IMG/VR virus record: IMGVR_UViG_3300033145_000191
Span: 1-63,965 of that record
Direction: 5' to 3' (one strand)
Length of the DNA: 63,965 nt
Source: a virus
In this document: in pieces, positions 22,975-58,416 of the stretch
Layout: the number at the start of each line of letters is the position of its first letter
How positions within the stretch are numbered: position 1 is the stretch's first letter
Notes under the pieces: model-generated
Databases searched by the model: none
What the model saw: only the letters and a program-made list of their open reading frames with translations
What the model was told of the DNA's origin: nothing
Position numbers and translations under genes: made by a program

Positions 22975-23394
22975 ATGTGGATTATTGCACAAGTAGCAGA
23001 AAGTGTGTCCGATAGCACAAGTGTTGTAAGCGGCTGGTGGGTTCCAATAGTGGCCCTTGTCTTAACAGCTATAGCTTATCAGCTTGTTAGACTCATTAAG
23101 AAGGGGGGTCAGTGGCTTGAAAATAAGTTTGGGGCTACAGAAGCAGAGAAAGAAATGATGTTAAATCTGCAAGAAGGTATTGCATTTGCACAAGATGAAA
23201 TGGGACGGGAACTTAAGAAGGCAGCAAGTGATGGAAAAGTAACAAAAGAAGAAGCCGCACAACTTAAAGCACTGGCTATTAAACATGCAATGGATATTGG
23301 TAGAGGACCAGCATTTACTCTAATGAAAGAAGTTGGAGTAGGGCGTCTTGGTGCTTTAATTGAAATGTTACTGTCAAAATTCAAACCTAATTAG
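22975..23394 (+). CDS. Holin-like membrane protein
   Basis: 139 aa with one strong transmembrane segment at about 21-41 (WWVPIVALVLTAIAYQLVRL), followed by a charged amphipathic helical domain (WLENKFGATEAEKEMMLNLQ). This resembles the LLH-type phage holin architecture. AAGGAG precedes the ATG. It is the first gene after the tail hub and before spanin-like genes, the expected lysis position. It would assemble in the inner membrane to time lysis. A tail-associated membrane protein is the alternative. Confidence 0.55.
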   Translation: MWIIAQVAESVSDSTSVVSGWWVPIVALVLTAIAYQLVRLIKKGGQWLENKFGATEAEKEMMLNLQEGIAFAQDEMGRELKKAASDGKVTKEEAAQLKALAIKHAMDIGRGPAFTLMKEVGVGRLGALIEMLLSKFKPN

Positions 23395-23406: not shown

Positions 23407-23541
23407 ATGGCTAGGCCAAAAGATGGTCGTGGAAAAGGTGCAGGTGGTGGCGGTGGGCGAAATACAGGAAAATGTGCCGCTGGTGGCCCAGGTTACGGGC
23501 GTGGAGGAGGTCGAGGCAGCGGACGTAATCGGAAAGGTTAA
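23407..23541 (+). CDS. Glycine/arginine-rich small protein (44 aa)
   Basis: Begins MARPKDGRGKGAGGGGGRNT and ends GRGGGRGSGRNRKG. AAAGG precedes the ATG 8 bases upstream. Gly/Arg-rich proteins of this type occur near lysis genes in other phages; their role is unknown to me. It starts 12 bases after the holin-like gene, in the same direction. Confidence 0.6.
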   Translation: MARPKDGRGKGAGGGGGRNTGKCAAGGPGYGRGGGRGSGRNRKG

Positions 23542-23544: not shown

Positions 23545-23712
23545 ATGAAACAGATTATTAGCTTCCTTGTGCAACTTTTAGCGGAGGTTATATCTGATGC
23601 ACTCAAAGTATTCAAATCAACAAAAGTTGAAAGCGCCGAGTCTACTCTTGGCCTTTCTGCTACTCCTGTTGATGAGCTTATCAATAGGTATGGCAGGCTG
23701 TTCAGGGACTAG
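23545..23712 (+). CDS. Small lysis-region protein overlapping the lipoprotein gene (55 aa)
   Basis: Begins MKQIISFLVQLLAEVISDAL, an amphipathic hydrophobic helix, and ends VDELINRYGRLFRD. It starts 3 bases after the previous stop with AAAGG upstream. Its last 116 bases overlap, in another frame, the lipoprotein gene starting at 23597. This out-of-frame nesting recalls Rz/Rz1 spanin pairs. The protein is short for an inner-membrane spanin, so the analogy is tentative. Confidence 0.5.
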   Translation: MKQIISFLVQLLAEVISDALKVFKSTKVESAESTLGLSATPVDELINRYGRLFRD

Positions 23713-23920
23713 GATTGTCTATGCTGGTTTTGCTCGACAACCCGAAGAAGCTCAAGGTGCTATTCGAATTGCTACAAATAGTCCGATACAAGTAACAGTT
23801 GTAGGAGTAGACGATTTTACTACCAAAATGGATTTGGGTGGTAAATATATTATTAGTGGGCCTGATTTGAAAGGGCTTATTGGTGCTGCACGTAAAGTTT
23901 CGGATGCTTCCATCAGGTAG
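23597..23920 (+). CDS. Lipoprotein, outer-membrane spanin-like candidate (107 aa)
   Basis: A basic N-terminus, a very hydrophobic stretch at 15-30 and a lipobox M-A-G-C with Cys35 mark a signal-peptidase II lipoprotein. GGAGG sits 9 bases upstream, inside the 55-aa gene read in another frame. The mature part, about 72 residues, is beta-like (IQVTVVGVDDF, GGKYIISGPDL) rather than Pro-rich. A lipoprotein nested in a lysis cassette suggests an o-spanin and therefore an outer-membrane host. Superinfection exclusion is another possibility. Confidence 0.6.
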   Translation: MHSKYSNQQKLKAPSLLLAFLLLLLMSLSIGMAGCSGTRIVYAGFARQPEEAQGAIRIATNSPIQVTVVGVDDFTTKMDLGGKYIISGPDLKGLIGAARKVSDASIR

Positions 23921-24242
23921 TATATTTGCCCCACAGCGGGGCAATCCGCCAGATTGTCCCGCTGGTTATATTCGTGATGCTAGTAATGCATGGATATTTC
24001 ATCCAGTTGTAAATGATTGCGAATTTCGTAAGGAAGAAGAATATTACCTCCAATGTGGGAAAAAACGTATTAGAAGTATCTGCACGATACTAAAATCACA
24101 TGTGTTACCCGGCACTTGTAAATTATGTCAGGAGGATGAACATTGGCTTTCGGAGTGTTTAAAGAAGTTTGGCTTGCTGGAAAAGGACCAAGTCTCGATA
24201 CCTTTGACTGGTCAAAAGCTGGACCATCTAGAATCGCAATAA
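23904..24242 (+). CDS. Small cysteine-rich protein of unknown function
   Basis: The frame from ATG 23904 begins MLPSGSIFAPQRGNPPDCPA and carries scattered cysteines (C-P-A-G-Y, V-N-D-C, L-Q-C-G, C-K-L-C, S-E-C), as in small zinc-binding proteins. It overlaps the lipoprotein gene at its 5' end and the GKGPS gene at its 3' end (24143-24242). No clear ribosome binding site is seen, so the start is uncertain. The last 33 residues lie opposite another frame and may be less constrained. Confidence 0.45.
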   Translation: MLPSGSIFAPQRGNPPDCPAGYIRDASNAWIFHPVVNDCEFRKEEEYYLQCGKKRIRSICTILKSHVLPGTCKLCQEDEHWLSECLKKFGLLEKDQVSIPLTGQKLDHLESQ

Positions 24243-24691
24243 ATGAGACAGTTTTTATAGTCCCTAAAGTTCGTGCTGTTTTTTATATTGATTATAATGT
24301 TGCAGACAAATTACGAAATCAAGAAACTGGCGAATTGTTTATCGACCCATCAATAATAATATTTAAGAAAAAAACACATTATGCTTATAAATTTGAGAAT
24401 GAATATCTATACTATGATGAAGTTAAAGATTGGCAAGGCACAGCTACAATTGCTGTTCAAGTATTATATAGTTTAGGAATGCGTAAATTGCATCTAATTG
24501 GATTTGATTCATTAGCTGGTAATGCTAGTTATGCCAATTCTATTAAAGGTATCCAGAGTGAAGGTAATACTTCTGATAATTATCGTAGATTGAATAAATC
24601 CTTACTTCATGTTATTAAGGATTTGAAAATCGAAGCTATATTGGAGATTAATAATGAGAGCAAGTCTATTGGTGACAACTTTTTGTCGTAA
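24143..24691 (+). CDS. GKGPSLD-type glycosyltransferase-like protein 1 (182 aa)
   Basis: Starts at TTG, 7 bases after a perfect AGGAGG. It contains VWLAGKGPSLDTFDWS near the N-terminus, the G-x-GPSL nucleotide-sugar loop shared by CST-I-type sialyltransferases and DUF115/MptE-like proteins, then RIAINETVFIVPKVRAVFYI. The ending includes LGMRKLHLIGFDS, also typical. It is the first gene of a roughly 6.5-kb glycosyltransferase cassette and resembles the cassette's last gene (29873-30682). At 182 aa it is short for the fold, so it may be a minimal version. Confidence 0.65.
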   Translation: MAFGVFKEVWLAGKGPSLDTFDWSKAGPSRIAINETVFIVPKVRAVFYIDYNVADKLRNQETGELFIDPSIIIFKKKTHYAYKFENEYLYYDEVKDWQGTATIAVQVLYSLGMRKLHLIGFDSLAGNASYANSIKGIQSEGNTSDNYRRLNKSLLHVIKDLKIEAILEINNESKSIGDNFLS

Positions 24692-25394
24692 TGAGCTTCT
24701 TGAATTTGGTCTTGACTCTATGCAAGTTCCAAATGATATAGAAGTAATTGTTCTTGACGACGGTTTACTAAATGATGCAAAAGAAATTACAAATAAACAC
24801 GGGTTTTCATATCTTCATACAGGTCACGATACAGAATTACATTGGCGCATCCCTGGCTACGCGCTAAACATCGGAGCAAAACGGGCAAAAGGTGATGTTA
24901 TAATCATTACTTGTGCTGAAATGTATCATGTTAATAATTGTATTGACTTGATACTTAAACCTTTTGAAAATGATAAATACTGTTTGACAATCCCAAATGG
25001 GGCTCAAGATTATCAGGGAGCATACCTTAACAATTTAAAAAATGGTAAAGGCCACAGTCAACTTATTTTTGAACAAAAGTGTTGTAAACTTAAAAATGAA
25101 TTACCCTTTTTCTTAGGTGTTAATCGTAATATTTTCTTAGCAATTGGCGGATATGATGAAGATTTCATTGGTCAAGCTTTTGATGATAACGATATTGTCG
25201 AGCGTCTTATTAATTATGGTTGCTATTATCAAAAGACACAAGCTCAAATAGTTCATCTTCACCATAATCGGTCATTTCCCGGTAGGAGTATAGATGGAAA
25301 TCGTCGATGGAACTATAATAGGGTTCTCTATGAAGGGCGATTGGGAACCATTATCAGAAACGAAAATCGAGAATGGGGAGTATTAAATGGTTAA
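24654..25394 (+). CDS. Family 2-like (GT-A) glycosyltransferase
   Basis: 246 aa starting MRASLLVTTFCRNELLEFGL. The N-terminal Rossmann part has VIVLDDGLLNDAKEI (D-D nucleotide binding), then YALNIGAKRAKGDVIIITCA, where DxD-type metal binding is expected. The C-terminal acceptor domain has LGVNRNIFLAIGGYDEDFIG and FDDNDIVERLINYG, the ED-type catalytic region of GT2/GT27-like enzymes. It overlaps the upstream gene by 38 bases and the downstream gene by 8. It transfers a sugar to an unknown acceptor. Confidence 0.75.
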   Translation: MRASLLVTTFCRNELLEFGLDSMQVPNDIEVIVLDDGLLNDAKEITNKHGFSYLHTGHDTELHWRIPGYALNIGAKRAKGDVIIITCAEMYHVNNCIDLILKPFENDKYCLTIPNGAQDYQGAYLNNLKNGKGHSQLIFEQKCCKLKNELPFFLGVNRNIFLAIGGYDEDFIGQAFDDNDIVERLINYGCYYQKTQAQIVHLHHNRSFPGRSIDGNRRWNYNRVLYEGRLGTIIRNENREWGVLNG

Positions 25395-26334
25395 GAAAGG
25401 ATATACTGCGGCACTTGAATTTCCTGGGAAACTTTTACAGTGTAATGATGCTGTAGTAGATGGTAAAATCAGACCATATCATATTCAATTTTCACCTACA
25501 AATAGGTGTAATGGTAATTGTCCATGGTGCTCTTGTAGAGATGTTGATCGGTCACTTGAAATGCCTATAGCAGAGTGTCTTAATATGCTTGAGTATTTCA
25601 AAAAACTTGGAACTAAAGCAATTACTATTACTGGTGGAGGTGAACCTACAATCCATCCAGGAATTTATAACATTATTCTACATGCAAAAGCTTGCGGAAT
25701 AGATGTTGGAATCGTTACTAATGGTTTGAAATGGGGTGCTGATAGTGAACATGTTCCAGTAGAGGTTCAGGCTGCCATAACATGGATGCGTGTATCAATT
25801 ATTGATACTGAAGGTGAGTATGATACAGAACGTATTGCACGTATTGCAGCAAAATTCACGACTGTTGATATTGGAATCAGTTTCACAACAACACCCAATG
25901 TTAATGTGAAAACAGCCATTGAACTTAGTAAAATTGCAAATCGTTTTAAGAATATTACACATATTCGATTCGTTCAAGATGTTCTTAATACGGATGATTC
26001 TGGTGTCACGGCAGTTAAAGAGGCTTGTGAATCTTTAACTGACAAGTCAATTTTTCAGTATCGTAATAAACATGGTTGGGGCGCAAGTAAATGTTGGTTG
26101 AGCCGATTAAAACCATTTATTGCACCTAATGGTATTGTTTATCCCTGTTGCGGAGTGCAATATGCAACTGATATTACTCGGAAGCTTCCTTTTCAATTTC
26201 GAATGGGTCATTGGAGAGATTTTGCAAGCCTTCATGTTTTTGATGGGAGTCGTTGTAAACGCTGCCATTATCAAAAATATAATGATATTCTCAACGTCTT
26301 GACTGATCAATATGAACATGGGAGATTCATCTAA
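25387..26334 (+). CDS. Radical SAM protein with SPASM-like cysteine tail
   Basis: 315 aa. Cys41-x3-Cys45-x2-Cys48 (NRCNGNCPWCSC) is the canonical 4Fe-4S/SAM motif, followed by ITITGGGEPTIHPG (the GGEP-type SAM loop) and VTNGLKW. The C-terminal part has KCWLSRL, YPCCGVQYA and SRCKRCHYQ, spaced like auxiliary-cluster SPASM cysteines. Radical SAM enzymes do hard radical chemistry such as epimerisation, dehydrogenation or crosslinking. Inside a glycosyltransferase cassette it may modify a sugar or a peptide acceptor. Overlaps both neighbours by a few bases. Confidence 0.85.
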   Translation: MVKKGYTAALEFPGKLLQCNDAVVDGKIRPYHIQFSPTNRCNGNCPWCSCRDVDRSLEMPIAECLNMLEYFKKLGTKAITITGGGEPTIHPGIYNIILHAKACGIDVGIVTNGLKWGADSEHVPVEVQAAITWMRVSIIDTEGEYDTERIARIAAKFTTVDIGISFTTTPNVNVKTAIELSKIANRFKNITHIRFVQDVLNTDDSGVTAVKEACESLTDKSIFQYRNKHGWGASKCWLSRLKPFIAPNGIVYPCCGVQYATDITRKLPFQFRMGHWRDFASLHVFDGSRCKRCHYQKYNDILNVLTDQYEHGRFI

Positions 26335-27152
26335 TGCAAATAGTATTTCCTGAAAGATGTAATCCACAAAAATATTATAAGTTGCATGTTCAATATATGA
26401 TTAATTCTGCTAGAGCGGCCGGCCATATTGTGTCTATAGACAAAAATGCAATACCATTACCAGATGGCCAAGAGTGTCGTTTAATTATTCTTGTAGACGG
26501 TAAAAAGCTTATGGTAGACTATTGTGATTTTCCAATCGTAACTGAATTTGAACTAGAACATAAAAACATCTTAAAGTTTCATAAATTTAAAAACTCACTC
26601 AAGTATATTAATCCATTCCCACCAATCAGTTTCTATGACTGGTCGCAATATGCTGAGTTGGCAAATGAAATAACATATACCGCTCAAGGTGAAATAATTA
26701 GCAGTCGTCAGTCATTTACACAGCATCAGAAGTCTGCCGCAACACGTCGGCATGTCCAAAAGACTATGGCTGATAAATATGGCGACATTGTGAAATATGG
26801 GCGTATTGAACAGGTTGACTTTTGGAAAGAGATAAGTCACAGTTTAGTTAGCGTCTGTGTTCCCGGTGCTTGCAGTTCTATTCTCGACCGTGGCCAGTTA
26901 CAGTGGATGGGTTTTGGCGGTTGCACTATCTCGCCGCACATCGACACGATACTGCCTTGGAACCGAGAACTTGTCAGTGGTGTTCATTACCTTGAGTGCA
27001 AGAATGATTTCAGTAATCTGTTTGCACTTATCGACTGGTGTAAGGACAATCGCGACAAGTGTGTTGAGATTGGTCAAAACGCCAAACAGTTATTCATGGA
27101 AACCTGCCACCCGATTAAGGCATGGGAGTGGGTTCAGGAGTGTATATCGTGA
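26334..27152 (+). CDS. Glycosyltransferase-like protein (GT-B / exostosin-like C-terminus)
   Basis: 272 aa. The C-terminal half has VSVCVPGACSSILDRGQLQW, MGFGGCTISPHIDT and HYLECKNDFSNLFALIDWCK, the pattern of GT-B enzymes with a nucleotide-sugar site and a trailing helix. The N-terminal half is less conserved. It overlaps the radical SAM gene by 1 base and the next gene by 4. From about 26740 the DNA becomes noticeably GC-richer within the gene. Confidence 0.6.
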   Translation: MQIVFPERCNPQKYYKLHVQYMINSARAAGHIVSIDKNAIPLPDGQECRLIILVDGKKLMVDYCDFPIVTEFELEHKNILKFHKFKNSLKYINPFPPISFYDWSQYAELANEITYTAQGEIISSRQSFTQHQKSAATRRHVQKTMADKYGDIVKYGRIEQVDFWKEISHSLVSVCVPGACSSILDRGQLQWMGFGGCTISPHIDTILPWNRELVSGVHYLECKNDFSNLFALIDWCKDNRDKCVEIGQNAKQLFMETCHPIKAWEWVQECIS

Positions 27153-27877
27153 AAGTAACTGTATTTACTTGTTCACATAATCATGGATGCTATCTTGAAC
27201 AATGCATTCGTAGTGTTCTTAGTCAGACACACACTGACTTTGAATACTTACTATATGCTGATGTTCCAATAGATAATACTATTGAGGTTATGCAAAAGTT
27301 TGCTAAACAAGATTCAAGAATCAAAGTCTTTTATCCTGAACTTCATAGTGAGATAAATATATCAAGACTTGTTAACCAAAGTATCAAGGACATGACTACT
27401 GACTATTGGATATGGGCTCCTGCAGATGATTACTTTCTCCCTAGACTTATTGAAAAGAAACTAGAGTGGATTAATATTTTCAAAGGTATTCATCCTGATG
27501 CAGTTATCTATGATGATGCTTGCATCATACATGAACGTGAAGAATTTAAAGTTCAACACGATTGTAAATTTTCGCCATATACGCCTAAAGAATTTTCTAA
27601 GATTGTATGGGAAGGCATAAGTATCGGTTTCACAGGGATACTGATTCCAAAATCAGTCTTTGAAATTGTAGGTGGTTTTGATGTAGATGTCTTATGGAGC
27701 GACGACTTTGAATGGATGGTGCGGGCTGCTGGTATTCATAAGATACCATTCCTACATCTTCCTGAGATTCTACACATTAAACGTAAGAATAAGAAGTCTA
27801 CGTCCTCTGACACACTAATAAAAAAAATTCGGGCAAATGCCCCGAAGATTATTAAAAAACTAAGGGGTCAATTATGA
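27149..27877 (+). CDS. Family 2 glycosyltransferase
   Basis: 242 aa starting at GTG 27149, 8 bases after AGGAG in a GTGA overlap. VTVFTCSHNHGCYLEQCIRS, VLSQTHTDFEYLLYADVPID and WIWAPADDYFLPRLIEKKLE follow the GT2 plan: nucleotide-binding strand, then the DD region. VGGFDVDVLWSDDFEWMVRA supplies the ED-type catalytic segment. Its stop overlaps the next start (ATGA). Confidence 0.8.
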   Translation: MKVTVFTCSHNHGCYLEQCIRSVLSQTHTDFEYLLYADVPIDNTIEVMQKFAKQDSRIKVFYPELHSEINISRLVNQSIKDMTTDYWIWAPADDYFLPRLIEKKLEWINIFKGIHPDAVIYDDACIIHEREEFKVQHDCKFSPYTPKEFSKIVWEGISIGFTGILIPKSVFEIVGGFDVDVLWSDDFEWMVRAAGIHKIPFLHLPEILHIKRKNKKSTSSDTLIKKIRANAPKIIKKLRGQL

Positions 27878-28521
27878 AATATTTATTTTGGGTATCTGTC
27901 GATGATATTCTTAAAGATTTTATAATCGGCAATAAGATGCTTCAATATGTCTCAAAAATATTTCCATTTGTAGCAGTTTGTTCTGGTGAAGAATCCCATA
28001 AGTGGATATCTAGATATTATGGCGGTTCATTTCATACTGGATTACCAAATGATCTTCAAATAAAAGGTTATACGATTATACGCCTGATACAAGGTAGTAG
28101 TGACACATTTGATTACATTGTGCGTATAGATATGGATGCTATAATCATGAATCCGATTTGGCTAATTAAACGTATTGAAGACAATGTTAATCGACACCAC
28201 CGTATTATAGCCGGGAATCCTGCCATTTTTAATCACGAGTCGCATATAAGAGGCGGGTGTAATGTTACAACAGGTAGAGCATTAGAAAATTTTCAATTGC
28301 ACCCTTATGGAAATCCAATGGCTTTTGATGAAATTTATACCAGGCAACTGGTAGCTAACGGTGTTATAAAACAAGAGCTTGAGATTTTTGAAATTAATAA
28401 TTATTATACAGGCAAATGCCCTGTTTGGCATCCAGACAAGTCACCATATATTAACGACCCTGTTGAATATTTGGCCGCTAGGTTTGAGATTTTTGAATCA
28501 CAAATGGAGAGATTGAAATGA
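27874..28521 (+). CDS. Putative GT-A glycosyltransferase with DMD motif
   Basis: 215 aa. FDYIVRIDMDAIIMNPIWLI contains a D-x-D motif in the hydrophobic setting of GT-A metal-binding sites. Further on are RGGCNVTTGRALENF and KCPVWHPDKSPYINDPVEY. It overlaps both neighbours by 4 bases. Family is unassigned beyond the fold. Confidence 0.6.
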   Translation: MKYLFWVSVDDILKDFIIGNKMLQYVSKIFPFVAVCSGEESHKWISRYYGGSFHTGLPNDLQIKGYTIIRLIQGSSDTFDYIVRIDMDAIIMNPIWLIKRIEDNVNRHHRIIAGNPAIFNHESHIRGGCNVTTGRALENFQLHPYGNPMAFDEIYTRQLVANGVIKQELEIFEINNYYTGKCPVWHPDKSPYINDPVEYLAARFEIFESQMERLK

Positions 28522-29324
28522 TTCCAAAACGTATGATCTTTTGTTGGGGCGCCGGTGACAAGATGTCCTGGATGAGATTCATGACACTAAAGTCATTTCG
28601 GATTATGAATCCTGATTGGGAAATGTGCCTCTATATTATTAGACATGATGCAACTACCAAGACATGGGATTCTCTAGAGGAACAGGACTTCTTTAAATAT
28701 GGGGGAGAGGATTATTTTGAACGTATTCATCAATTAGGCATCACTTTTGTCCCATGGAAAGCTCGCGGGATTCTTGTTGGTGCAGGGCCACAGCATCTTA
28801 GTAATTTTCTAAAGTGGGATGAAATGGCAACCAGTGGTGGTTTCTATTCTGATATGGATATACTATGGACACAGCCATTTGATAAATTCTATAATATTGT
28901 TAAAGAGTATAATACTGTATTGTGCCGGGATAGATGGTGGTCAATAGGGCTATTAGGTTCTACACCTAATAATGATTTCTTTTTTGATCTTCATCAAAAT
29001 GCTATGCAGTATTTTACATTATCACAGTATCAATGTGCAGGTGTTAAGACGTTAGCTCGATTAGGAATCAAAACTGAACGCGACATTGAGGAACGGTATC
29101 CTGGCAATCGTGTTTATAATTTTGGAATGAATCTTGTATATCGATGGGATTACAATGCTCTTGATAAAATATTCAAGACTATTGTGCCTATCCCTGATTC
29201 GACAATCGGTATCCATTGGTATGGTGGACACCCGACGTCTCAGGCAATGAACAACAAACTATGTGAAGGAAATTATAAGGAGTTTCCTTGCACCTTCACC
29301 ACAGCCGTGGGGGGGATCTATTAA
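28518..29324 (+). CDS. GT32-type glycosyltransferase (DXD sugar-binding region)
   Basis: 268 aa. It begins MIPKRMIFCWGAGDKMSWMR, the usual IPKxIH-like opening of the GT32 group, and has GGFYSDMDILWTQPFDKF, the classic DXD block. It closes with IGIHWYGGHPTSQAM, the HW-G-S ending typical of the family. Starts in an ATGA overlap with the preceding gene; the next ATG follows the stop directly. Confidence 0.8.
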   Translation: MIPKRMIFCWGAGDKMSWMRFMTLKSFRIMNPDWEMCLYIIRHDATTKTWDSLEEQDFFKYGGEDYFERIHQLGITFVPWKARGILVGAGPQHLSNFLKWDEMATSGGFYSDMDILWTQPFDKFYNIVKEYNTVLCRDRWWSIGLLGSTPNNDFFFDLHQNAMQYFTLSQYQCAGVKTLARLGIKTERDIEERYPGNRVYNFGMNLVYRWDYNALDKIFKTIVPIPDSTIGIHWYGGHPTSQAMNNKLCEGNYKEFPCTFTTAVGGIY

Positions 29325-29876
29325 ATGAAGCCTTGGAAGATATGTGCATATTACACGAAAGGCACACCATACGAAGATATGGTAGATGGATTTCGAAAAT
29401 CATGTCTTGCGAATGGGGTATTGCACCCTCACATCGAAGGATTGCCGGATAAAAATTCTTGGAGAAATAACACTGGTATGAAACCTAGTTTTATATTAAA
29501 TTGCATGGATAGATTCCACAAGTGGAATATTATTTATGTTGATATTGACGCCAAAATCAGAGCGTATCCGGTGTGGTTTGATACAGTCGTCGAGGATTTT
29601 GCTGCAAATACTCAAGCAAGAAAAGAATTATTAAGTGGCACACTTTACTTTGCAAATAATCCAAGAGTTCGTGCCATTGTGGTAAAATGGGTCGAGAAGC
29701 AAGAACGACTTATGCACGTCTTTGATCAGAAGAATCTAGAGAATGTTATCAAAGACGACGAGACCATTACAGTAGCGGAATTACCACCAGCATATGTTCA
29801 AATATTTGACTTGATGGCTCATCATGGTGAGCCAGTCATTGAACACTTCCAAGCTAGTAGGAGATTCAGAAAATGA
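29325..29876 (+). CDS. Putative nucleotide-diphospho-sugar transferase (183 aa)
   Basis: WNIIYVDIDAKIRAYPVWFD provides a D-I-D metal motif in a GT-A-like strand, and KPSFILNCMDRF and LSGTLYFANNPRVRAIVVKW resemble GT77/DUF nucleotide-sugar transferases. It is shorter than most members. It begins directly after the GT32-like gene and overlaps the next by 4 bases. Confidence 0.6.
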   Translation: MKPWKICAYYTKGTPYEDMVDGFRKSCLANGVLHPHIEGLPDKNSWRNNTGMKPSFILNCMDRFHKWNIIYVDIDAKIRAYPVWFDTVVEDFAANTQARKELLSGTLYFANNPRVRAIVVKWVEKQERLMHVFDQKNLENVIKDDETITVAELPPAYVQIFDLMAHHGEPVIEHFQASRRFRK

Positions 29877-30682
29877 AAAAATTTCCAAAAAATGTAAACA
29901 ACGTGCGCGTCCGTAAGCTAGTGGACGGCTCATTTATGCTCCCTCGATGTAATAAGCAAGCTGCCATAGAACTTGATAAAAATTTTATTCGGTGCAGTGG
30001 AGAATTTCGTTGGTTTGAAAAACCTGAACAGTTGATAACGCTCGAAACATTACGAGTTATTTTTGAGGGTAGACGGTGTTACATTGTTGGAAAAGGCCCG
30101 AGTCTTGATAATCTTAAAGCTTCTGATATTGAATTGCCAAATTCACCTGTGGTATGTATCAATGAATCTATTCATAAAGTCGAGTCTTTAAGATTACCAA
30201 ATCCGATTTTTGCAATCCAACAAGATGCTAAATTAGGTATTACTTGTTATCCGGCAAATGGTATTATTTTAATATCAACACAAGCGGCAAATGTATATAG
30301 GCAACTTAATAGAAAATACATCTTTAATCCAAGAACTTATAAAATGACGCCAGGAGCCTTGACTGTGGAGATAGCGGTAGCCCTCTGTAAAGAATTAGGG
30401 ACATCAAGTTTTTCAATGATTAGTTTTGATGCTCATGAAAATGGTTCGACAGATTACGCGAAAGTAATCGGTTATCTGCCGAACCAAGGTGGGAGTGTTG
30501 GAAGATTTTTAAAGCACGCTAAAATTCTAGATAAAATTTTAACAAGTTATTCAGTAGAATATATTACGCCAACAGACCGGTCTTCAACATCTCTCGATAC
30601 ACTTGAGCAGCCACATGAGCATCCGCCACAGCATCATGAGCATTCTCATGAGGAACATGTAAAAGATTCGCAAGATACGTGA
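29873..30682 (+). CDS. GKGPSLD-type glycosyltransferase-like protein 2, with His-rich tail
   Basis: 269 aa. CYIVGKGPSLDNLKASDIEL carries the same motif as the first cassette gene, followed by VVCINESIHKVESLRLPNPI and LGTSSFSMISFDAHE. The last 38 residues (PHEHPPQHHEHSHEEHVKDS included) are encoded antisense to the 3' end of the minus-strand exonuclease gene. The His-rich tail is therefore probably a by-product of overlap rather than a separate domain. It is the final gene of the plus-strand virion/glycosylation operon. Confidence 0.7.
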   Translation: MKKFPKNVNNVRVRKLVDGSFMLPRCNKQAAIELDKNFIRCSGEFRWFEKPEQLITLETLRVIFEGRRCYIVGKGPSLDNLKASDIELPNSPVVCINESIHKVESLRLPNPIFAIQQDAKLGITCYPANGIILISTQAANVYRQLNRKYIFNPRTYKMTPGALTVEIAVALCKELGTSSFSMISFDAHENGSTDYAKVIGYLPNQGGSVGRFLKHAKILDKILTSYSVEYITPTDRSSTSLDTLEQPHEHPPQHHEHSHEEHVKDSQDT

Positions 30683-31193
30683 GGCTCGTTTTAGGAAATG
30701 GAACTTTTTCAGCGTGCCAAGCAGCTCTATCATTAAGAAAAGCTGATGTGCACATTGTATCTTTATAATGATAATGAAAAAGTTCATCATATTCATCATG
30801 ACCAATCCAATGTTGTATGAAACCTTTATCAAAACAATAATTTTGTCCTAGTGGTATGAGTCTTTTTTGTCGACCACTTGGAGTAAATGGAAGTTTAAGT
30901 TTTTTAAACCAGTCGCGGAGCAGGTCTTTAGCAGTTTCTTTGCTAAAGCCATGCTCTGCGGCGTGAACAAGTTTCTTTCTATTCATTTTTCGAGCTTTAC
31001 CTTGACACCTTTCAAGATGTTCACATTGCATATATACAGCAAATGGAATAATATCTGTGCGTGGAATAAAATTTGAATCAAGTGGGATAATAGCAATTTG
31101 AATAATCTCATGCCACCCGGATTCAAGACCAGTTGTTTCACAATCAATAGCAGCACATTGATCACCATTCCAGTGTTCCATAGAATTGCTCAT
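30564..31193 (-). CDS. DnaQ-type DEDDh 3'-5' exonuclease
   Basis: 209 aa, starting at MSNSMEHWNGDQ, whose ATG is 6 bases after AGGAG on the minus strand. Exo I is AAIDCETTGL (D and E), an Asp lies in GQNYCFDKGF, and Exo III is HENAHDAVADAHVA (H and D). It degrades or proofreads DNA or RNA 3' ends. It is the last gene of the minus-strand replication block, overlaps the Dam gene by 4 bases, and shares 119 bases with the convergent plus-strand gene. Confidence 0.85.
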   Translation of the reverse strand: MSNSMEHWNGDQCAAIDCETTGLESGWHEIIQIAIIPLDSNFIPRTDIIPFAVYMQCEHLERCQGKARKMNRKKLVHAAEHGFSKETAKDLLRDWFKKLKLPFTPSGRQKRLIPLGQNYCFDKGFIQHWIGHDEYDELFHYHYKDTMCTSAFLNDRAAWHAEKVPFPKTSLTYLANLLHVPHENAHDAVADAHVAAQVYREMLKTGLLA

Positions 31194-32077
31194 TTTGCTC
31201 TCCTTATCCAAAGTATTTCTTGTGCGTGAACACGTTTATTGATGCCTTCAACATTAGCTTTTTGATTAGACTCTTTGAAGGCCATAGCTTGAAGGGATAC
31301 AAAAGCGTCCCACTCATAACGCTCGTCCCATTTAATAGTATCTTCATATATAGGATTAGAATATCCAGATACAGCAAAGAAACCTATACTATTGTTAATT
31401 GTTTCAAGTAGTCTACGATGTGCTGCATGTGTCATAATATGTGTATAGGCTCCTGCATATGAATCAATATATGGTGGGTCTACATAGAATATTGCGTCTG
31501 GTGCATCGTAGTCGATTATACAATCAATGCCATCTTGATTCTCGACTTGAACATGCTCGAAACGTTCATGGATAAGTGGAAACATTTTTAATTTCTTGCG
31601 TAAGGATGCAAGAATCGCTTTCGGTGATGTTGATCGACCAAAGTTACGACCCATTGTCCCAAATGAATACTGTGTCATATAATACCATCGTGCTGCTCGC
31701 TCGACGTCACTGTGAGTATTTTCCCAAGTGTCTCTACATAATAGAAATTCTTCACGAGAATGAACTGTGAGTTCAAGCCAGTCGCACAATTGACGCATCT
31801 TATTATGATTCTTGATGCATCTGTAGAATGATGTTACTCCTGCGTATCGATCATTGAACACTTCGAGTCTTGAGGGTTTTCGTGCCAATAGTAAGGCGGC
31901 TGATCCGCCATAAGGTTCGATATATCGTTTCTCATATGGTAAGTGCCCAAGAATCTGTTTAACAGACTTGGATTTACCGCCAGGATAACCAAAAGGAGGT
32001 TTGAGAATTTCTTCACGCGTTCTTTTAGTTTCATGTGCATCAAGTTCTTCAAATGGATTCCATTTGGCATTAGGCAT
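31190..32077 (-). CDS. D12-class DNA adenine-N6 methyltransferase (Dam-like)
   Basis: 295 aa. FGYPGGKSKSVKQILGHL holds the FxGGK SAM site, YIEPYGGSAALLL is motif I-like, and IFYVDPPYIDSYAG is the DPPY catalytic motif. Together these identify a Dam-type enzyme making N6-methyladenine, probably protecting phage DNA from restriction or marking replicated DNA. The target site cannot be deduced. GGAG lies 5 bases before the ATG. Confidence 0.88.
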   Translation of the reverse strand: MPNAKWNPFEELDAHETKRTREEILKPPFGYPGGKSKSVKQILGHLPYEKRYIEPYGGSAALLLARKPSRLEVFNDRYAGVTSFYRCIKNHNKMRQLCDWLELTVHSREEFLLCRDTWENTHSDVERAARWYYMTQYSFGTMGRNFGRSTSPKAILASLRKKLKMFPLIHERFEHVQVENQDGIDCIIDYDAPDAIFYVDPPYIDSYAGAYTHIMTHAAHRRLLETINNSIGFFAVSGYSNPIYEDTIKWDERYEWDAFVSLQAMAFKESNQKANVEGINKRVHAQEILWIRRAK

Positions 32078-32122: not shown

Positions 32123-32560
32123 TCAAACAATATTTTCACAAAAGATTAATTTACCCTTCTTCCATGCAGCTCGATCTTTCTTGATTCGCATAATCAAGCT
32201 TTTTGGACAACGATGTTTGTTTGCTAAGCTCATTGGCAATTTACCTTCAACTATTCGCTTATAGGTCCAGCGGAAGCCAAAGATATTCCATGCAGCTGCC
32301 ATTTCATGTGACTCATCATCCCAACCCCAAAAGGCTTTTGCCGAATGTCGACGATTAGAATCGTAATATTTGTGTAGAGGAATACCTTTTTCCCAATTAC
32401 GAGGAAGGTATTTCTCTGCGCCCGCTTCATAATGTATAGCTAATTCCATTTCAATATCAAAGGGCACAAGATGAAATGCACCTTTCATACTACCACTAGC
32501 GTCTCGAACTGCACCAGTAGAAAATACTTCTCGCCTACCAGAGTCTTTGATTTTAATCAT
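32123..32560 (-). CDS. dATP/dGTP diphosphohydrolase-like protein (DUF5664 type)
   Basis: 145 aa. GAEKYLPRNWEKGIPLHKYY, SNRRHSAKAFWGWDDESHEM and AAAWNIFGFR follow the pattern of the phage family annotated as dATP/dGTP diphosphohydrolase (an all-helical, MazG-related fold). It would hydrolyse dNTPs to dNMPs to reshape the pool, which fits the MazG, deoxynucleotidase and dCMP deaminase genes elsewhere here. It overlaps the upstream gene by 8 bases. Confidence 0.7.
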   Translation of the reverse strand: MIKIKDSGRREVFSTGAVRDASGSMKGAFHLVPFDIEMELAIHYEAGAEKYLPRNWEKGIPLHKYYDSNRRHSAKAFWGWDDESHEMAAAWNIFGFRWTYKRIVEGKLPMSLANKHRCPKSLIMRIKKDRAAWKKGKLIFCENIV

Positions 32561-32757: not shown

Positions 32758-32955
32758 CTATACTCCTAATTTTAGTTGGCCATAAGTCCACAGGCCAACG
32801 GATTCTAAAATTACTAAGCTAGAACTTTGCACGACATTAACACCGATGAACTTGTGTTCTGGAAGCTTGATGATTAAAGTATCTCCTTGTTCAAAGGCAC
32901 ATCGTAAGGCTTCTCTAGAGCCATCTGACAATTTATCCAGGGTTTGACGTATCAT
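32758..32955 (-). CDS. Small protein of unknown function (65 aa)
   Basis: Begins MIRQTLDKLSDGSREALRCA and overlaps the 3' end of the primase-helicase gene by 23 bases. The second half is strand-rich (DTLIIKLPEHKFIGVNVVQS). No family recognised. Translational coupling to the primase gene is likely. Confidence 0.55.
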   Translation of the reverse strand: MIRQTLDKLSDGSREALRCAFEQGDTLIIKLPEHKFIGVNVVQSSSLVILESVGLWTYGQLKLGV

Positions 32956-35647
32956 CTTTAACCCTTTCTAAATAGTTAGCCCTAGCTACAAATTTAGTTC
33001 CAATATGTTCTTCATCAATAGCATTACCGTGCCATGTTATATTACCGATGTAAAATTGACCGTCTGCATGAATTCTTGCTTTGGGATATTGTGGTGGTAA
33101 TTCTCTACCAACACGAATCTTAGTCCATTTTGGAACGTCATTAACATCAAGCCATTTAAGAAATTCAGTATGAAAATCACTGAATTTAATAGATATACCA
33201 TTATAATATTCACATTTTTCGCTAATGAAAAGTTCTAATTGTGTTTGATTAAATTGTTGTGCTGTTACTTTATCCTCAGTCTCAATTACTGGAACATTAA
33301 GCCTGTCATTTGATCTTGGAATTTCAAGTTTTAAGATGTCACCAAGTAAATGTGGGGCTTCTTTTTCAAGCAATGGGATAATATCTTTTTTAGGTATTTG
33401 TGTCAAAGGGTCAAGTAGTTCGACATAAGACATGGTGATTCTAGTATCACCTGTAAATATTGGACATGCTTGATGATTATTAGCGCATTGAATCCAGTGT
33501 GTTGTATTGGGTATATGGTAAGGTGTTTTACCTTTACAATGAATAAGAAGGTCGCGTGATGTGACCCAATCTTTAATTCTATCATAAGCTGAACTAGATT
33601 TTGCTAAATTCGTTTCCTCAACAACACAGATGATTGCACCCTCAAGTTCGCCATTGAATCCGGCCTGTGAAATAAGAGCAGCATCTGCTCGCTTATATCC
33701 TTTTGTAAGCAATAATGATAAAGCTTCATGGAAAATAGACTTACCACTATTCTGTGGGCCATAGAAGAAAAGATATGGCAAAGGTTCAGTTGGCTCTTGG
33801 AATAATGACGCTACCCAAATCTTCAAATAGTCAGCACCATTCAAGACACCATTAGCTTTGGCCCAACCATTATTAATGATTGCGTCATCAAGACCCTTAC
33901 CGCAATGTTGAAATATCTTATCCCATGTGGGATAGATATAAGTATCAAGGTGTCTTTCTGGTAGAAACTTTAATTGTGCAGCATTCCTATTCCATTCACG
34001 GTCACCAGGATATTCTGGTTGAAATGGCTTGTTGACAACTCGCCAAGCCTTAAAGACACTAGAACCAAGAATACCGATTGTTTCTTTATTAGTATAGCCA
34101 AGACTTTGTAGTGCAATCTTCAAGTGTGTAAGTGGTTCAAGACGCCATTTGTTATCTGATTTTAACATCCAACCATAATCCTCATTAGACTCTGTAACTA
34201 GATGTCTAACGAGGTCGTCATAATTTCCTAAATCTGTTTCTGTGGGTGTGGATACTTGAGCATTGAAGATACGTGTCCATTTATCTTTTTTAATTAACCA
34301 TCCCTGCATTTCATCTGCAGAGTCATGACCGTCATACATAACTTCAATTATTAATCGACCATCCTTATGTTGCTTAAGAATACATCGTCTACTGCGGAGT
34401 GCAGTTGCGACTTTCATTGTAACACCTAAGAGTGCCGCTGCCTTAATAGCTATCTCGGCCTCACGAAATACAAAACCGCCGGATGGATCTTCTAATCCGC
34501 CGAAAGCACGGCATGCTGTGGAGATATCTGGCTCCCGATTAAGGAAGCATCGCGTCCACCCCGCGCCGTCTTGCTCCCAAGACGCATGTTCAGACACACC
34601 CGGCGTATAACGACGAATTGCCCATGCACCTTTACGCATAGGAAATGCAAAACAATTCTGTTCATTAACCATTGTAGCCGGTGAAGAAGTTTCAAAATAA
34701 CCTTTGTAGCCAAGTTCCTTGTGTGCAGCCTGTAAGTGTGTTGTGTGAGTAACAAGCATGTGGTGGTCAGTGTCCCACCACCATAATACATTGGAGTCTT
34801 TTAAGAACTCAATTAATTTTTTATGTTCATCATCTAATTGCACATGAACATATTGTCCGCATAATTCTTCAAAAACATCCATGCTATTTTTATCTTTTAG
34901 GTTCTGTGGAAGATTTTTACGTCGTTTGCCAGTAATAACTTTAACATGGTCTCTCCAATTTGGTGGAATTGATTTAAGAATCCCACCTTGTTTCACTAAT
35001 ATAAGACCATCTGTGCCACGCATCCTACGTGCCCATACCCACATATTACCACCACAAATATCTACTTTACTCTGGAAATTGTAACCAGTTAAAGCAGTCA
35101 TGGTTCCAAGTATCGAGCGTGCGAGTGCTGCGTGTTCATTGTGATTAGCTGTATGCACATCATCAAGCATCACGTATAGGTGTAAACCCTTGCCAGAAGT
35201 TGATTTACGAATCGTTATCCATTCTATTTTAACAGCAGCAGTTTTTACATCTTCAAGTTCTTCATTTGTCAATTTATTTTCATTCTTATCAGAATGACCA
35301 ATTATTGCATCAAAATCAAATGCAACCCATTGGCTACATCGTTTCTGCCAATTCCACCCAGTCATTCCAATAGCTTCTACATGGGCCGCTAAGTCAAACC
35401 TGATTATGGAATCTTCAAATTCAGGGTCAGAGAATGCTTTGTATGGAATTCTAAAAGATTTCCATGTCGTCTGACCATCTGACCAACCATGCCATTTACG
35501 ACCTTGATATGTGCCATCTATACGCTCACCCGCGTCTTGTGCGACATTAACCTGACACTCCATACCAAGATGGTATAATCGTGCCAGATCCGAATGGGTG
35601 CTTGCGATTAAGAATCGTTCAATAGCTTTTGTTTTAGTTGGTTGCAT
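32933..35647 (-). CDS. Primase-helicase: AEP primase-polymerase plus SF3 helicase
   Basis: 904 aa. The N-terminal AEP primase domain has WVAFDFDAIIGH (first two Asp, near 108), KSTSGKGLHLYV (the S-x-H-type motif, near 150) and SKVDICGG (third Asp). The C-terminal helicase has LFFYGPQNSGKS (Walker A, near 620), GAIICVVEETN (Walker B) and THWIQCANNHQ (motif C). It primes and unwinds DNA at the replication fork. The ATG at 35647 has GGAG 6 bases upstream; a TTG at 35659 is in frame but less likely. First gene of the minus-strand operon. Confidence 0.88.
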   Translation of the reverse strand: MQPTKTKAIERFLIASTHSDLARLYHLGMECQVNVAQDAGERIDGTYQGRKWHGWSDGQTTWKSFRIPYKAFSDPEFEDSIIRFDLAAHVEAIGMTGWNWQKRCSQWVAFDFDAIIGHSDKNENKLTNEELEDVKTAAVKIEWITIRKSTSGKGLHLYVMLDDVHTANHNEHAALARSILGTMTALTGYNFQSKVDICGGNMWVWARRMRGTDGLILVKQGGILKSIPPNWRDHVKVITGKRRKNLPQNLKDKNSMDVFEELCGQYVHVQLDDEHKKLIEFLKDSNVLWWWDTDHHMLVTHTTHLQAAHKELGYKGYFETSSPATMVNEQNCFAFPMRKGAWAIRRYTPGVSEHASWEQDGAGWTRCFLNREPDISTACRAFGGLEDPSGGFVFREAEIAIKAAALLGVTMKVATALRSRRCILKQHKDGRLIIEVMYDGHDSADEMQGWLIKKDKWTRIFNAQVSTPTETDLGNYDDLVRHLVTESNEDYGWMLKSDNKWRLEPLTHLKIALQSLGYTNKETIGILGSSVFKAWRVVNKPFQPEYPGDREWNRNAAQLKFLPERHLDTYIYPTWDKIFQHCGKGLDDAIINNGWAKANGVLNGADYLKIWVASLFQEPTEPLPYLFFYGPQNSGKSIFHEALSLLLTKGYKRADAALISQAGFNGELEGAIICVVEETNLAKSSSAYDRIKDWVTSRDLLIHCKGKTPYHIPNTTHWIQCANNHQACPIFTGDTRITMSYVELLDPLTQIPKKDIIPLLEKEAPHLLGDILKLEIPRSNDRLNVPVIETEDKVTAQQFNQTQLELFISEKCEYYNGISIKFSDFHTEFLKWLDVNDVPKWTKIRVGRELPPQYPKARIHADGQFYIGNITWHGNAIDEEHIGTKFVARANYLERVKDDTSNPG

Positions 35648-36073
35648 ATGATTCTCCAAATCTCATAGATTCGATTAAAATCAAATCATTTTTAAGTATT
35701 GGCTAAATTATCCCGTCAATACTCTTTACGTGATATACAAGAAACTTTTAAGACAATTTTTAAGTCGTTTTGTGGCAAAGACTTACGACAATTCATACTG
35801 TCTTATTCTCAGTTTGCAGCATAGAATGACAGATAAAAAATAGAAAACTACACAGCGAATTAGACTCGAAATAGTCAGTAAAACGGTATCCATTAATACA
35901 CTATACGCCGAAAATATATTTATTTTCTTCTTAAAAAATCACCCCAAATCCCGTAAAGACTTATATCGTGCCGACATTCATTTCGGGTGCGGCAAGGCCG
36001 AATGATAATCGAATCGCTCGTTGATTTGATTATTTCGGCGATTTCAAATCTTTTTATGGAAAGGGGTATGCGT
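35648..36073. promoter_or_regulatory. Divergent control region between primase and ParB-like operons
   Basis: About 425 AT-rich bases without a convincing gene. On the minus strand at 35787-35758 lies CGTAAGTCTTTGCC followed 8 bases on by ACTTAAAA, a near copy of the elements at 976 and 1112. The plus-strand element at 35930-35958 matches the one before the virion operon. AATCAAATCATTT at 35679 recurs at 48169, upstream of another operon. Likely promoters in both directions with shared regulation. Confidence 0.65.
35930..35958 (+). promoter_or_regulatory. Conserved two-part upstream element, copy 2 (before the ParB-like operon)
   Basis: CTTAAAAAATCA, four bases, AAATCCCGTAAAG, then ACTTATAT. 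It is identical in its 25 defined bases and spacing to 2376-2404, and lies 115 bases before the ParB-like start. Confidence 0.65.
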
Positions 36074-37138
36074 ATGTCAGAGGCATCGACAGAAGAAGCA
36101 GTAGTCGAGCAGGAAAAAGTCCAGTTGGGACTCCAAACGGTTTCGATTTCGGAAATCAGGGAGAACCCGGTGGCACTTCGCACAGTGAACACTGAGTCTG
36201 AGAGTTATCTCGGAATCGTGGCATCCATTCGTGAGAAGGGATTTATGGGGGCTATCTGCGTTCGACCGCAGGTTGCTGAAGATGGCAGCCGTTACTTCGA
36301 GCTTGTTGATGGTCTCCATCGTTTTGCTGCGGCTAAAGATGCCGGGCTGACGGAAATCAACGTGGATGTCAAGAATCTGAACGATGATCAGACGCTTGAG
36401 GCACAGATTATGGCCAACATCCACAAGGTCGAGACAAAGCCGGTTGAGTATTCGCAACAGTTGAAGCGAATCCTGATTCGGAATCCTCTCATGGCTGAAG
36501 GTGAACTCGCCAAGAAGCTCGGCAAGTCTCCGCAGTGGATTAAGGAGCGTCTCGGTCTCAATCGTATCGACAATGAAGTTATTGTCGAGCTTATCAATGA
36601 GGGCCAAATCAATCTCACGAATGCTTATGCCCTCGCCAAGCTTCCGGCGGAAGAAATGGCAGATTTCTCCGACCGCGCTATGACACTTGACCCCAAGGAG
36701 TTTGTCCCGCAGGTCAATGCCCGCGCAAAGGAAATCCGCGATGCAAAACGTGCTGGTAAGGATGCCGGTCCCGCCGAGTTTGTGCCTGTTGCATTTATGC
36801 AGAAGATTGGCGCAATCAAGGACGAGCTTGAGAATGGTAGTATTGCAGAAGTTCTAATTCCTGAATCCGGAGCCAAAACGGCCGCAGACGGATTCAAGTT
36901 GGCCATTAATTGGATTCTTCATCTTGACCCAAAGTCGGTAGAAGCACAGAAGGCCAAGGATGAGGAACGTCAGGCACAGCGTAAGGCCGCAAAGAAGATC
37001 AGAACTGTCGAGAAAGCAGAGAAGAAGGCTGCCGACGACAAGGCAAAGGCTGAAAAGTCAGCAAAACTTGCCGAGGAAGCAAAGGAAGCTGCTGCAAAAG
37101 AAGCTTCTGAAGGAGATACACCTCCGGCTGCCGAGTAG
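36074..37138 (+). CDS. ParB/Srx-domain DNA-binding protein 1
   Basis: 354 aa from ATG 36074, 7 bases after AAGGGG; the frame is open further upstream without a site. The N-terminal ParB-like domain has SISEIRENPVALR, ELVDGLHRFAAAKDAGL and ANIHKVETKPVEYS. A helix-turn-helix follows (GELAKKLGKSPQWIKERLGL). The C-terminal about 70 residues are a Lys/Ala/Glu coil. Such phage proteins act in partition, replication or transcription control. Codons are GC-rich (33 G/C of 60 bases at 36121-36180), suggesting high expression. Confidence 0.8.
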   Translation: MSEASTEEAVVEQEKVQLGLQTVSISEIRENPVALRTVNTESESYLGIVASIREKGFMGAICVRPQVAEDGSRYFELVDGLHRFAAAKDAGLTEINVDVKNLNDDQTLEAQIMANIHKVETKPVEYSQQLKRILIRNPLMAEGELAKKLGKSPQWIKERLGLNRIDNEVIVELINEGQINLTNAYALAKLPAEEMADFSDRAMTLDPKEFVPQVNARAKEIRDAKRAGKDAGPAEFVPVAFMQKIGAIKDELENGSIAEVLIPESGAKTAADGFKLAINWILHLDPKSVEAQKAKDEERQAQRKAAKKIRTVEKAEKKAADDKAKAEKSAKLAEEAKEAAAKEASEGDTPPAAE

Positions 37139-40628: not shown

Positions 40629-41489
40629 ATGTCACAGGACGAAGCTAGACAACTTACGAATATTCTGCTTGATGATATTCACGCAGATGCAGAGTTCAAT
40701 AGTCGAGGAACTATAGCACCTATTGATGTTGTGGACTTAGCAAAAGATATTGACATTAATGGATTATTACAACCTGTAGTTGTGCGCCCATATAATGAAG
40801 TGGAACAGGCAGAAACAGGTAAAAAGTACCTGCTTATCATGGGTTATCGGCGGCATATGTCATTTCATGTGCTTGGTAGAGAAACGATTCCGGCAATCAT
40901 TCGTGAAGATATTCATGATGAATTAAAGGCTCGTGTTTTGAATCTTTCTGAAAATCTCAAACGGAAAGACCTTACACTGTGGCAGGAAGCAAAAGCATTA
41001 TCAGCATTACATGATCTTGGATTAACGGAACAATCAGTATCAGAAGAAATTGGCATGTCTCGTGGATGGGTGCAGGTAAGATTTATGGTTTTGCGATTAC
41101 CACAGGCTGTGCAGGATGAAGTCAAAGCTGGATTAATTATACAGGCAGATATTCGAGATCTTTATACAGTCTTCAGAAATAATGGTAAAGATGACTGCTT
41201 TGAGGCTGTAAGAAAATTGAAAGAGGCAAAGGCTTCCGGACGAAAAATCAATATTAAGAAGGGCAAGCCTATGAGCAAGCGTGTTCGTAGCCGACCAGAA
41301 ATGTTTGAAATGCAAGAGCATCTGGTTAAGACATTCAAGAAAAATACTGTTGCAACTCGTGTATTGGCATGGTCAGCAGGGGAAATATCAACTTATGAAT
41401 TTTACATTACCGTTCGGTTATATTGTGAAGAACACAATATACCTTATGTTATTCCACAAGGTGCGGAGGATAATAATGAATATATTTGA
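40629..41489 (+). CDS. ParB-like DNA-binding protein 2
   Basis: 286 aa. The ParB N-domain has INGLLQPVVVRPYNEV, LLIMGYRRHMSFHVLG (GxRRxxA-type) and LSENLKRKDLTLWQEA (ENxxRxDL-type). The helix-turn-helix is LTEQSVSEEIGMSRGWVQVR. It is closer to canonical ParB than the protein at 36074. It may bind the repeated palindromes near 62 kb or act as a transcription factor. AAAGGGATATAA precedes the ATG, and its stop is just after the next start. Confidence 0.8.
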   Translation: MSQDEARQLTNILLDDIHADAEFNSRGTIAPIDVVDLAKDIDINGLLQPVVVRPYNEVEQAETGKKYLLIMGYRRHMSFHVLGRETIPAIIREDIHDELKARVLNLSENLKRKDLTLWQEAKALSALHDLGLTEQSVSEEIGMSRGWVQVRFMVLRLPQAVQDEVKAGLIIQADIRDLYTVFRNNGKDDCFEAVRKLKEAKASGRKINIKKGKPMSKRVRSRPEMFEMQEHLVKTFKKNTVATRVLAWSAGEISTYEFYITVRLYCEEHNIPYVIPQGAEDNNEYI

Positions 41490-48610: not shown

Positions 48611-49282
48611 ATGATGATGGGGGACGCTAAACAAGAAAACATCAAAGGCGTTACAGAAATAATGGTTCAAGATGTTCGTAATGGTCATAAACAAGCAGCA
48701 AATCAAATTATCCTACTCCATTTACCAATGGCCAAACGGATTAGCAAATCAATTGCAAGACACCACATGCCAAGTAGAAAACCAGGAATAGAAGGTGCGG
48801 GTTTGCTTGGTGTGGTTGTAGCAGTTAAGCGGGCACCAATGGTTATGTATAACAATATTATATCACCATACATAGCCACACATGTCCGCAAAGAAATACA
48901 AGAGTTTTTGGAACATGATCATTTAGTTCATATTCCAAGAGGTGAGTTTAAGAAACTAATTGAAAAACATGAGAATATAAACTTTATCCCATTGTATTAT
49001 AGAAGCACACCTGCATATGTTGATGATTCAGGAGAATATCGTGGTGGAGATTTTGAGCATTTAGCAAAATGTTCAGTTACTCAATACCATGACGATGTTG
49101 AAATCGCTGACACACTACAAGCAATAAAAGCAACAGAATACGAGAAGAAAATAGTCATGCTCCGATTAAAGAACTACACACTTGAAGAAATTGGAAATCG
49201 TCTTGGAACATCAGCAGTAACAATACACAATTATCTTATTCAATTACAAAAGAAATGGAGACACTGCTCATGCGTCCAATAA
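48611..49282 (+). CDS. Sigma-70-like factor 1
   Basis: 223 aa. The N-terminal region-2-like part is ILLHLPMAKRISKSIARHHM, then GAGLLGVVVAVKRAP, and PYIATHVRKEIQEFLEHDHL follows. Region 4 is YEKKIVMLRLKNYTLEEIGN then RLGTSAVTIHNYLIQLQKKW, a clear helix-turn-helix. It probably redirects host RNA polymerase to phage promoters. It overlaps the deoxynucleotidase gene. Confidence 0.8.
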   Translation: MMMGDAKQENIKGVTEIMVQDVRNGHKQAANQIILLHLPMAKRISKSIARHHMPSRKPGIEGAGLLGVVVAVKRAPMVMYNNIISPYIATHVRKEIQEFLEHDHLVHIPRGEFKKLIEKHENINFIPLYYRSTPAYVDDSGEYRGGDFEHLAKCSVTQYHDDVEIADTLQAIKATEYEKKIVMLRLKNYTLEEIGNRLGTSAVTIHNYLIQLQKKWRHCSCVQ

Positions 49283-58334: not shown

Positions 58335-58416
58335 GGAGAATATTATAATGCCGCTATAAACTTATAATCAGTCCGCTAACTATTAGTTTTGAGTTTTGGA
58401 AGGGGGAAGTAAAGAA

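Follow-up and report, generated by a model that had tools for sequence, protein, structure and literature searches.

Nine tightly packed genes including a radical SAM gene

The window analysed here, that is the whole 63,965-base stretch of the IMG/VR virus record IMGVR_UViG_3300033145_000191, comes from an uncultivated tailed phage with genes for a terminase, a portal, a major head protein and a tape measure. Between lysis-type genes on the left and a convergent exonuclease gene on the right, positions 24143-30682 are filled by nine intact, tightly packed open reading frames (ORFs) on the plus strand, gp1 to gp9, which an initial annotation had read as a cassette of eight glycosyltransferase (GT) genes and one radical SAM gene. 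The overlaps between neighbours are 38 nt (gp1/gp2), 8 nt (gp2/gp3), 1 nt (gp3/gp4) and 4 nt (gp5/gp6, gp6/gp7 and gp8/gp9, as well as gp4/gp5 if gp5 starts at GTG 27149 and not at ATG 27122), and gp7 and gp8 abut (0 nt). A GGAG/AGGAGG-like site lies upstream of most of these starts. Since each of the nine proteins has a homologue elsewhere at E<=1e-26 (blastp), all nine are real genes and the cassette holds up ORF by ORF. An Rfam scan of the region gave zero matches, and promoter- and terminator-like sites were found there at no more than chance level. A tRNA-Ile with a TAT anticodon, called by ARAGORN at 29497-29581, falls within the coding region of gp8 and was taken as probably false.

By comparing the nine proteins with Pfam, we obtained matches above cut-off to GT2 for gp2 (24654-25394; 6e-12) and gp5 (27149-27877, GTG start; 2.7e-14) and to Radical_SAM for gp3 (25387-26334; 3.9e-14). 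Transferase or MptE-like models matched gp1, gp4, gp6, gp7 and gp9 below cut-off, and gp8 alone had no Pfam match. Homologues assign several of these proteins to transferase families. First, gp7 (28518-29324) is predicted to be GT32-like, as its family reaches PF04488 through the relative in locus L039 (51.6 bits for a cut-off of 23). Second, gp8 (29325-29876) is a predicted GT-A nucleotide-diphospho-sugar transferase, whose family reaches PF03407 through L030 and L058, slightly over cut-off. Third, gp1 (24143-24691; TTG start with AGGAGG upstream), a putative sugar transferase with blastp homologues in 10 loci, and gp9 (29873-30682; 40% identical to its relative in L011) are mutually related and MptE/GT42-like: their profiles find the same proteins, and gp1 is 27% identical to the gp9 part of a fusion protein in L014. 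One family member, in L211, is joined to a phrog_1962 glycosyltransferase in a single protein, and its match to phrog_4603 ("alpha-2,3-sialyltransferase") reaches 3.9e-21. For gp1 and gp9 themselves, the likeness to GT42/Maf-like nonulosonic-acid transferases consists of weak matches (for gp1, MptE-like at 0.013, phrog_4603 at 0.0017, and CstII), and a profile search with gp9 returned no PDB relative.

Two assignments are tentative. A GT90 match (0.0033, below cut-off) makes gp4 (26334-27152) a putative transferase, its sole blastp homologue lying in L048 outside the cassette of that locus. A DMD motif and a weak Galactosyl_T match suggest that gp6 (27874-28521) may be a GT-A transferase; it has three blastp homologues and matches part of fusions of 825-897 amino acids that also contain gp7-like domains. 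Homologues of gp5 were found by blastp in 22 loci, including L211. Several GT-family genes lie within one operon: of the eight announced initially, gp2 and gp5 are assigned by direct match, gp7, gp8 and the gp1/gp9 pair through homologues, and gp4 and gp6 tentatively.

In most relatives, gp8 and gp9 form one fused protein with gp9 on the C-terminal side. A structural model of the L048 fusion had a mean predicted local distance difference test (pLDDT) of 92.2 and a predicted template-modelling score (pTM) of 0.58, so that the arrangement of the two domains is unsure. Its best PDB folds were GT6 galactosyltransferases and the PBCV-1 capsid glycosyltransferase 2p72, and in a viral structure library it matched GTs and one MptE-like phage protein. 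Across gp1 to gp9, zero hydrophobic segments exceeded the threshold.

The radical SAM enzyme gp3 carries the CX3CX2C motif of the SAM cluster (C41, C45, C48) followed by a GGE motif (GGGEP). Among 66 homologues these residues are invariant together with K15, W133, R135, S137, R194, C236, C254, C255, C290, C293, N299 and H311. The arrangement C236-X12-G249-X4-C254 plus C290-X2-C293 is that of a twitch domain and, judged by motif, would hold one auxiliary cluster. The C-terminus contains CX2C and lacks the full seven-cysteine SPASM motif (CX2CX5CX3C), so the initial "SPASM-like" label was replaced by a four-cysteine twitch type. By analogy with radical epimerases, C255, which adjoins C254, could serve as a hydrogen donor. 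The AlphaFold2 model of gp3 (pLDDT 95.2, pTM 0.92) matched DesII and BlsE on top, then peptide maturases, viperins, SpeY, EpeE and BtrN, with template-modelling (TM) scores of about 0.41-0.60 by query length. DesII, BlsE, SpeY and BtrN act on sugars, cyclitols or sugar nucleosides. Because sugar and peptide enzymes match about equally well, the fold alone is no guide to which kind of substrate gp3 uses, and a PHROGs scan of its homologues returned generic radical SAM families only.

A hypervariable site and a recurrent core

Two conserved genes border the cassette site. On the left, a Cys-rich small ORF (23880-24242, plus strand; its real start may be downstream of 23880) overlaps gp1 by 100 nt, and its family is found in 48 loci whether a cassette is present or not. 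This ORF comes between the cassette and the Rz-like gene, which corrects the initial placement directly after the lysis-type genes. On the right, the RNase_T/DnaQ-like exonuclease gene (30564-31211, minus strand; PF00929, 2.2e-12) belongs to a family present in 78 loci. Relatives were gathered by aligning the primase-like protein of the window (32933-35659, minus strand; phrog_1156, 8e-16), which gave 80 loci of its lineage, and by aligning gp9, which gave more loci. Single-protein scans of viral contigs with gp3 and gp5 had returned no relatives, which the lineage alignments then found, and searches of annotated phages with gp7 and gp1 gave no match.

In these relatives, 45 complete hub-exonuclease intervals ranged from 317 bp to 10,248 bp. 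They correspond to 42 distinct contigs once the duplicates L058/L192, L017/L030 and L019/L065 are taken out by hand, and GT-family genes occur in 15 of these, the gp8-gp9 fusion in 11 and the radical SAM gene in 8; these proportions are biased, since some loci were gathered using gp9 or gp3. The cassette locus is therefore a hypervariable site, where content varies at a fixed position among related phages.

Despite this turnover a core recurs, in the order GT2, radical SAM, fused gp8/gp9, and the smallest radical SAM cassettes (L186 and L187) consist of just these three genes. Lineage cassettes with a radical SAM gene carry a gp2-type GT2 gene upstream of it. The larger cassette of L048/L189 combines gp1, gp2, gp3 and gp5 with a gene for a sulfotransferase, gp7 in two copies and the gp8-gp9 fusion. 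The L014 cassette retains the order gp2, radical SAM, gp5, gp7, gp7, fusion, with most proteins 37-43% identical to those of the window (30% for the second gp7 copy) and the radical SAM protein only 26% identical to gp3. In a quick tree, this protein forms a long branch outside the lineage clade, which suggests, though long branches may be misleading, that the radical SAM gene of L014 was replaced. Other cassettes include sulfotransferase, PIG-L deacetylase and methyltransferase genes, and some GT cassettes at the site have no radical SAM gene. Because relatives freely gain and lose genes, the cassette looks modular and not like a fixed pathway; no nucleotide-sugar synthesis gene was found, and the genes do not demonstrate the complete pathway for a single glycan that was proposed initially. 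As a side observation, the L014 primase (L014:14157-17891) has 1244 amino acids against 908 in the window, owing to an insert of about 317 amino acids between two matching parts, possibly an intein.

Then, we followed the radical SAM family beyond this lineage with an alignment of the gp3 family, which gave 70 viral loci plus cellular contigs. A GT2 gene is present in the radical SAM operon in 67 of 81 viral and cellular loci. Around the viral radical SAM genes, 147 of the 588 ORFs lying within 3 kb belong to GT families, whereas at distances over 5 kb the figure is 12 of 447 (odds ratio 12; the Fisher value, p=1e-26, is optimistic because ORFs that share a contig are not independent). A second lineage of phages, lineage B, has the radical SAM gene next to GT2, GT42-like and GT32-like genes, in a cassette placed between the major capsid gene and neck/tail genes. 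Head genes of the type found in L211 occur in 20 loci, with the major capsid gene 1.3-2.4 kb from the radical SAM gene in most. In L211 itself, a member of lineage B, the cassette has a major-head-like gene on one side and neck/major-tail genes on the other, and its order is GT42-like/GT fusion, radical SAM, GT2, GT32-like, GT2 and, judged by reading the sequence, a sulfotransferase-like gene. The core recurs across many uncultivated phages, related and unrelated, which qualifies the initial remark that no standard phage module has this composition, although the searches made brought up no characterised one.

Cellular homologues of gp3 lie in polysaccharide loci, with Wzz, WecG and a Wzx-type flippase in L108, an ABC transporter ATPase in L112, Wzt in L117 and DegT in L110. 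Taken together with the GT neighbours, these loci tie the radical SAM family to glycan assembly. The initial view of a cassette that builds or alters a glycan is upheld by the GT families and this neighbourhood, and its proposal of a radical step on that glycan gains indirect support, through the co-occurrence with GTs and the cellular loci. Two archaeal loci, L109 (Diapherotrites) and L114 (Archaeoglobaceae), also carry a gp3 homologue with GT genes, with similar small genes upstream, and are possibly proviruses with a similar module.

Probable acceptor of the glycan and proposed role of the radical step

We propose that the cassette encodes a soluble glycosylation set made together with the virion proteins and most likely glycosylating one of them, a reading to which we give a probability of roughly 0.45. 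Soluble cytoplasmic enzymes would use nucleotide sugars of the host to make a short glycan on an acceptor that is most likely a capsid or tail protein. The basic transferase set would be gp2 with gp8 and gp9, the latter two being a single protein in relatives. During growth of the glycan, or on the nucleotide-sugar donor, gp3 would abstract a hydrogen from a sugar, which would thereby be oxidised or epimerised, and further residues may be added by gp1, gp4, gp5, gp6 and gp7. The sulfotransferase, PIG-L deacetylase and methyltransferase genes of other cassettes encode typical glycan decorations, consistent with this proposal. Also in its favour are the GT and radical SAM assignments, the GT neighbours of the radical SAM family and its place near the capsid gene in lineage B, the lack of hydrophobic segments in gp1 to gp9, the likeness in fold between gp8 and the PBCV-1 capsid glycosyltransferase, the cellular polysaccharide loci, the matches of gp3 to enzymes of sugars or cyclitols, and the virion glycosylation reported for mycobacteriophages. 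Given the fast turnover of gene content, related phages would carry different glycan coats.

Several observations weigh against a virion acceptor. The acceptor is inferred, the position in a late operon indicating timing and not target; soluble GTs also assemble O-antigen on lipid carriers on the inner side of the membrane; the cellular homologues of gp3 sit in polysaccharide loci; the peptide-modifying SuiB, SkfB and EpeE match the gp3 fold about as well as the sugar enzymes do; and the assignments of gp4 and gp6 are weak.

The second and third of these points bear on the main rival, which we consider somewhat unlikely: the cassette would change a surface glycan of the host (O-antigen or capsule) in the cytoplasm via lipid-linked intermediates, and so block the sticking of progeny to lysed cells or the adsorption of competitors. 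The Wzz, Wzx and Wzt loci fit such a role, and the GT islands of pelagimyophages with radical SAM cassettes were read by their authors as modifying O-chains (PMC7029224). However, membrane proteins such as a flippase or a polyprenyl-phosphate transferase are absent from the cassette, it lies in a virion operon in two lineages, right after the capsid gene in lineage B, and so late a location would leave little time for a change of the cell surface.

The fold matches to peptide enzymes raise another explanation, namely that gp3 acts on a virion protein, in which it would, for instance, oxidise or epimerise the side chain of an amino acid and so provide the point from which the GTs build. Proteins or peptides are frequent substrates of SPASM/twitch enzymes, with PqqE, SuiB and EpeE among the matches, and the constant partnership of the radical SAM gene with GTs would suit such a priming step. 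We nevertheless find it improbable, as members of the family are also present in polysaccharide loci of cells, in which a protein is a less likely acceptor, and as the radical SAM gene is missing from some GT cassettes at the same site.

Peptide maturases among the best matches of gp3 also draw attention to the left flank, where three plus-strand elements precede the cassette: a holin-like small membrane protein (22975-23394; one hydrophobic segment, 46% identity to its relative in L014), a Gly-rich basic peptide of 44 amino acids with a single cysteine (23407-23541), and a nested Rz/Rz1-like pair recognised by sequence reading (23545-23920, with ORFs 23545-23712 and 23597-23920, the latter with the lipobox-like LSIGMAGC). 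In a scheme resembling that of ribosomally synthesised and post-translationally modified peptides, gp3 would modify a small peptide, possibly the Gly-rich one, which would then be glycosylated. Among the loci examined, that peptide has a homologue only in L014, whose genome also carries a radical SAM gene, but L186, L187 and L189 have the radical SAM gene and no such peptide there, and the cellular homologues are located in polysaccharide loci. We therefore judge this scheme very unlikely, left the Gly-rich peptide outside the cassette as an unassigned flanking gene, and found no support for it as a conserved substrate of gp3. A search near the radical SAM gene for a precursor peptide that is conserved, which did not take in every short ORF, found none, and the peptide crosslinking considered initially is not favoured.

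Phage GTs are also known to modify DNA (PMC7029224), and the window phage encodes dCMP deaminase and NT5C genes, which would accord with a cassette that glycosylates modified bases as a protection against restriction. Among the window proteins scanned, which did not include all small ORFs of a possibly incomplete record, we found no match to a thymidylate-synthase-like hydroxymethylase, TET/JBP or a base kinase, and this reading was set aside on these grounds. Moreover, the GTs are many and different and are sited with virion genes instead of replication genes, all of which makes DNA a quite improbable target.

Beyond the exonuclease gene lie a D12 class adenine DNA methyltransferase gene (31190-32077, minus strand; PF02086, 1.2e-19) and, adjoining it, a gene matching the N-terminal domain of a dATP/dGTP diphosphohydrolase (32123-32560; PF18909). 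Further along are two different ParB-like genes (35987-37138 and 40629-41489) and two weak sigma-70-like genes (48611-49282 and 58396-59061), possibly phage sigma factors.

Returning to virion glycosylation, we suggest, as a possibility that is still rather doubtful, that the radical SAM enzyme makes an unusual sugar in a particle-attached glycan; this would be the first radical step in virion glycosylation and would belong to a widespread, uncharacterised viral module whose cassette is exchanged among unrelated phages. If so, many uncultivated phages would wear glycans of unusual chemistry, the work of a radical enzyme, and the genes that determine the coat would be exchanged among related phages, with a bearing on escape from recognition and from adsorption traps. 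Such phages would also be a source of new enzymes that modify sugars. With GT2, radical SAM and fused gp8-gp9 as its only genes, the core is small enough for the question to be tested directly.

Comparison with known systems

In the open-access literature, to which the search was confined (subscription papers and preprints lying outside it), we found no study of this module. Like the GtrABC genes of temperate phages, the cassette contains a GT2 gene among phage genes that would alter a glycan. GtrABC conversion of O-antigen requires membrane proteins, a flippase included. Whereas GtrABC combines a membrane flippase with membrane-bound GTs, none of gp1 to gp9 has a hydrophobic segment above threshold, and a membrane system of that kind is thus not present.

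At the level of single enzymes, gp3 shares the radical SAM fold with DesII, BlsE and the twitch dehydrogenases BtrN and SpeY, the latter two also having the twitch domain, but at only 12-17% identity and TM scores of 0.41-0.59 by query length. Similarly, gp8 has the GT-A fold of the PBCV-1 capsid glycosyltransferase 2p72 (TM 0.67 by target length), an enzyme of an algal virus with 15% identity, and this likeness of fold does not imply the same acceptor.

At the level of gene clusters, the podophage ctQWt234 (MW202801) carries a distant gp3 homologue, an Fe-S oxidoreductase gene (25.5% identity over half its length), which is placed together with two GT genes between those for capsid and tail; the podophage differs in its partners (PhyH, NodB-like and methyltransferase genes) and in having no gp8-gp9. 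The host-recognition cluster of pelagimyophages is a hypervariable island of GTs and "radical SAM" cassettes (PMC7029224), and one of these phages, HTVC008M (L009), has a distant gp3 homologue (22-23% identity). Pelagimyophages are nevertheless large and T4-like with sugar-biosynthesis genes nearby, and the gp8-gp9 fusion did not turn up in the HTVC008M stretch. Finally, a parallel to the proposed role, drawn from description and not from sequence, is with mycobacteriophages: the part of the source consulted does not mention a radical SAM enzyme, and the acceptor is reported there but presumed for the window phage, yet in Che8, Corndog and Myrna phage-encoded GTs, as in our cassette, are the common element, and they are reported to glycosylate capsid and tail-tube proteins (PMC12363180, citing Freeman et al. 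2023).

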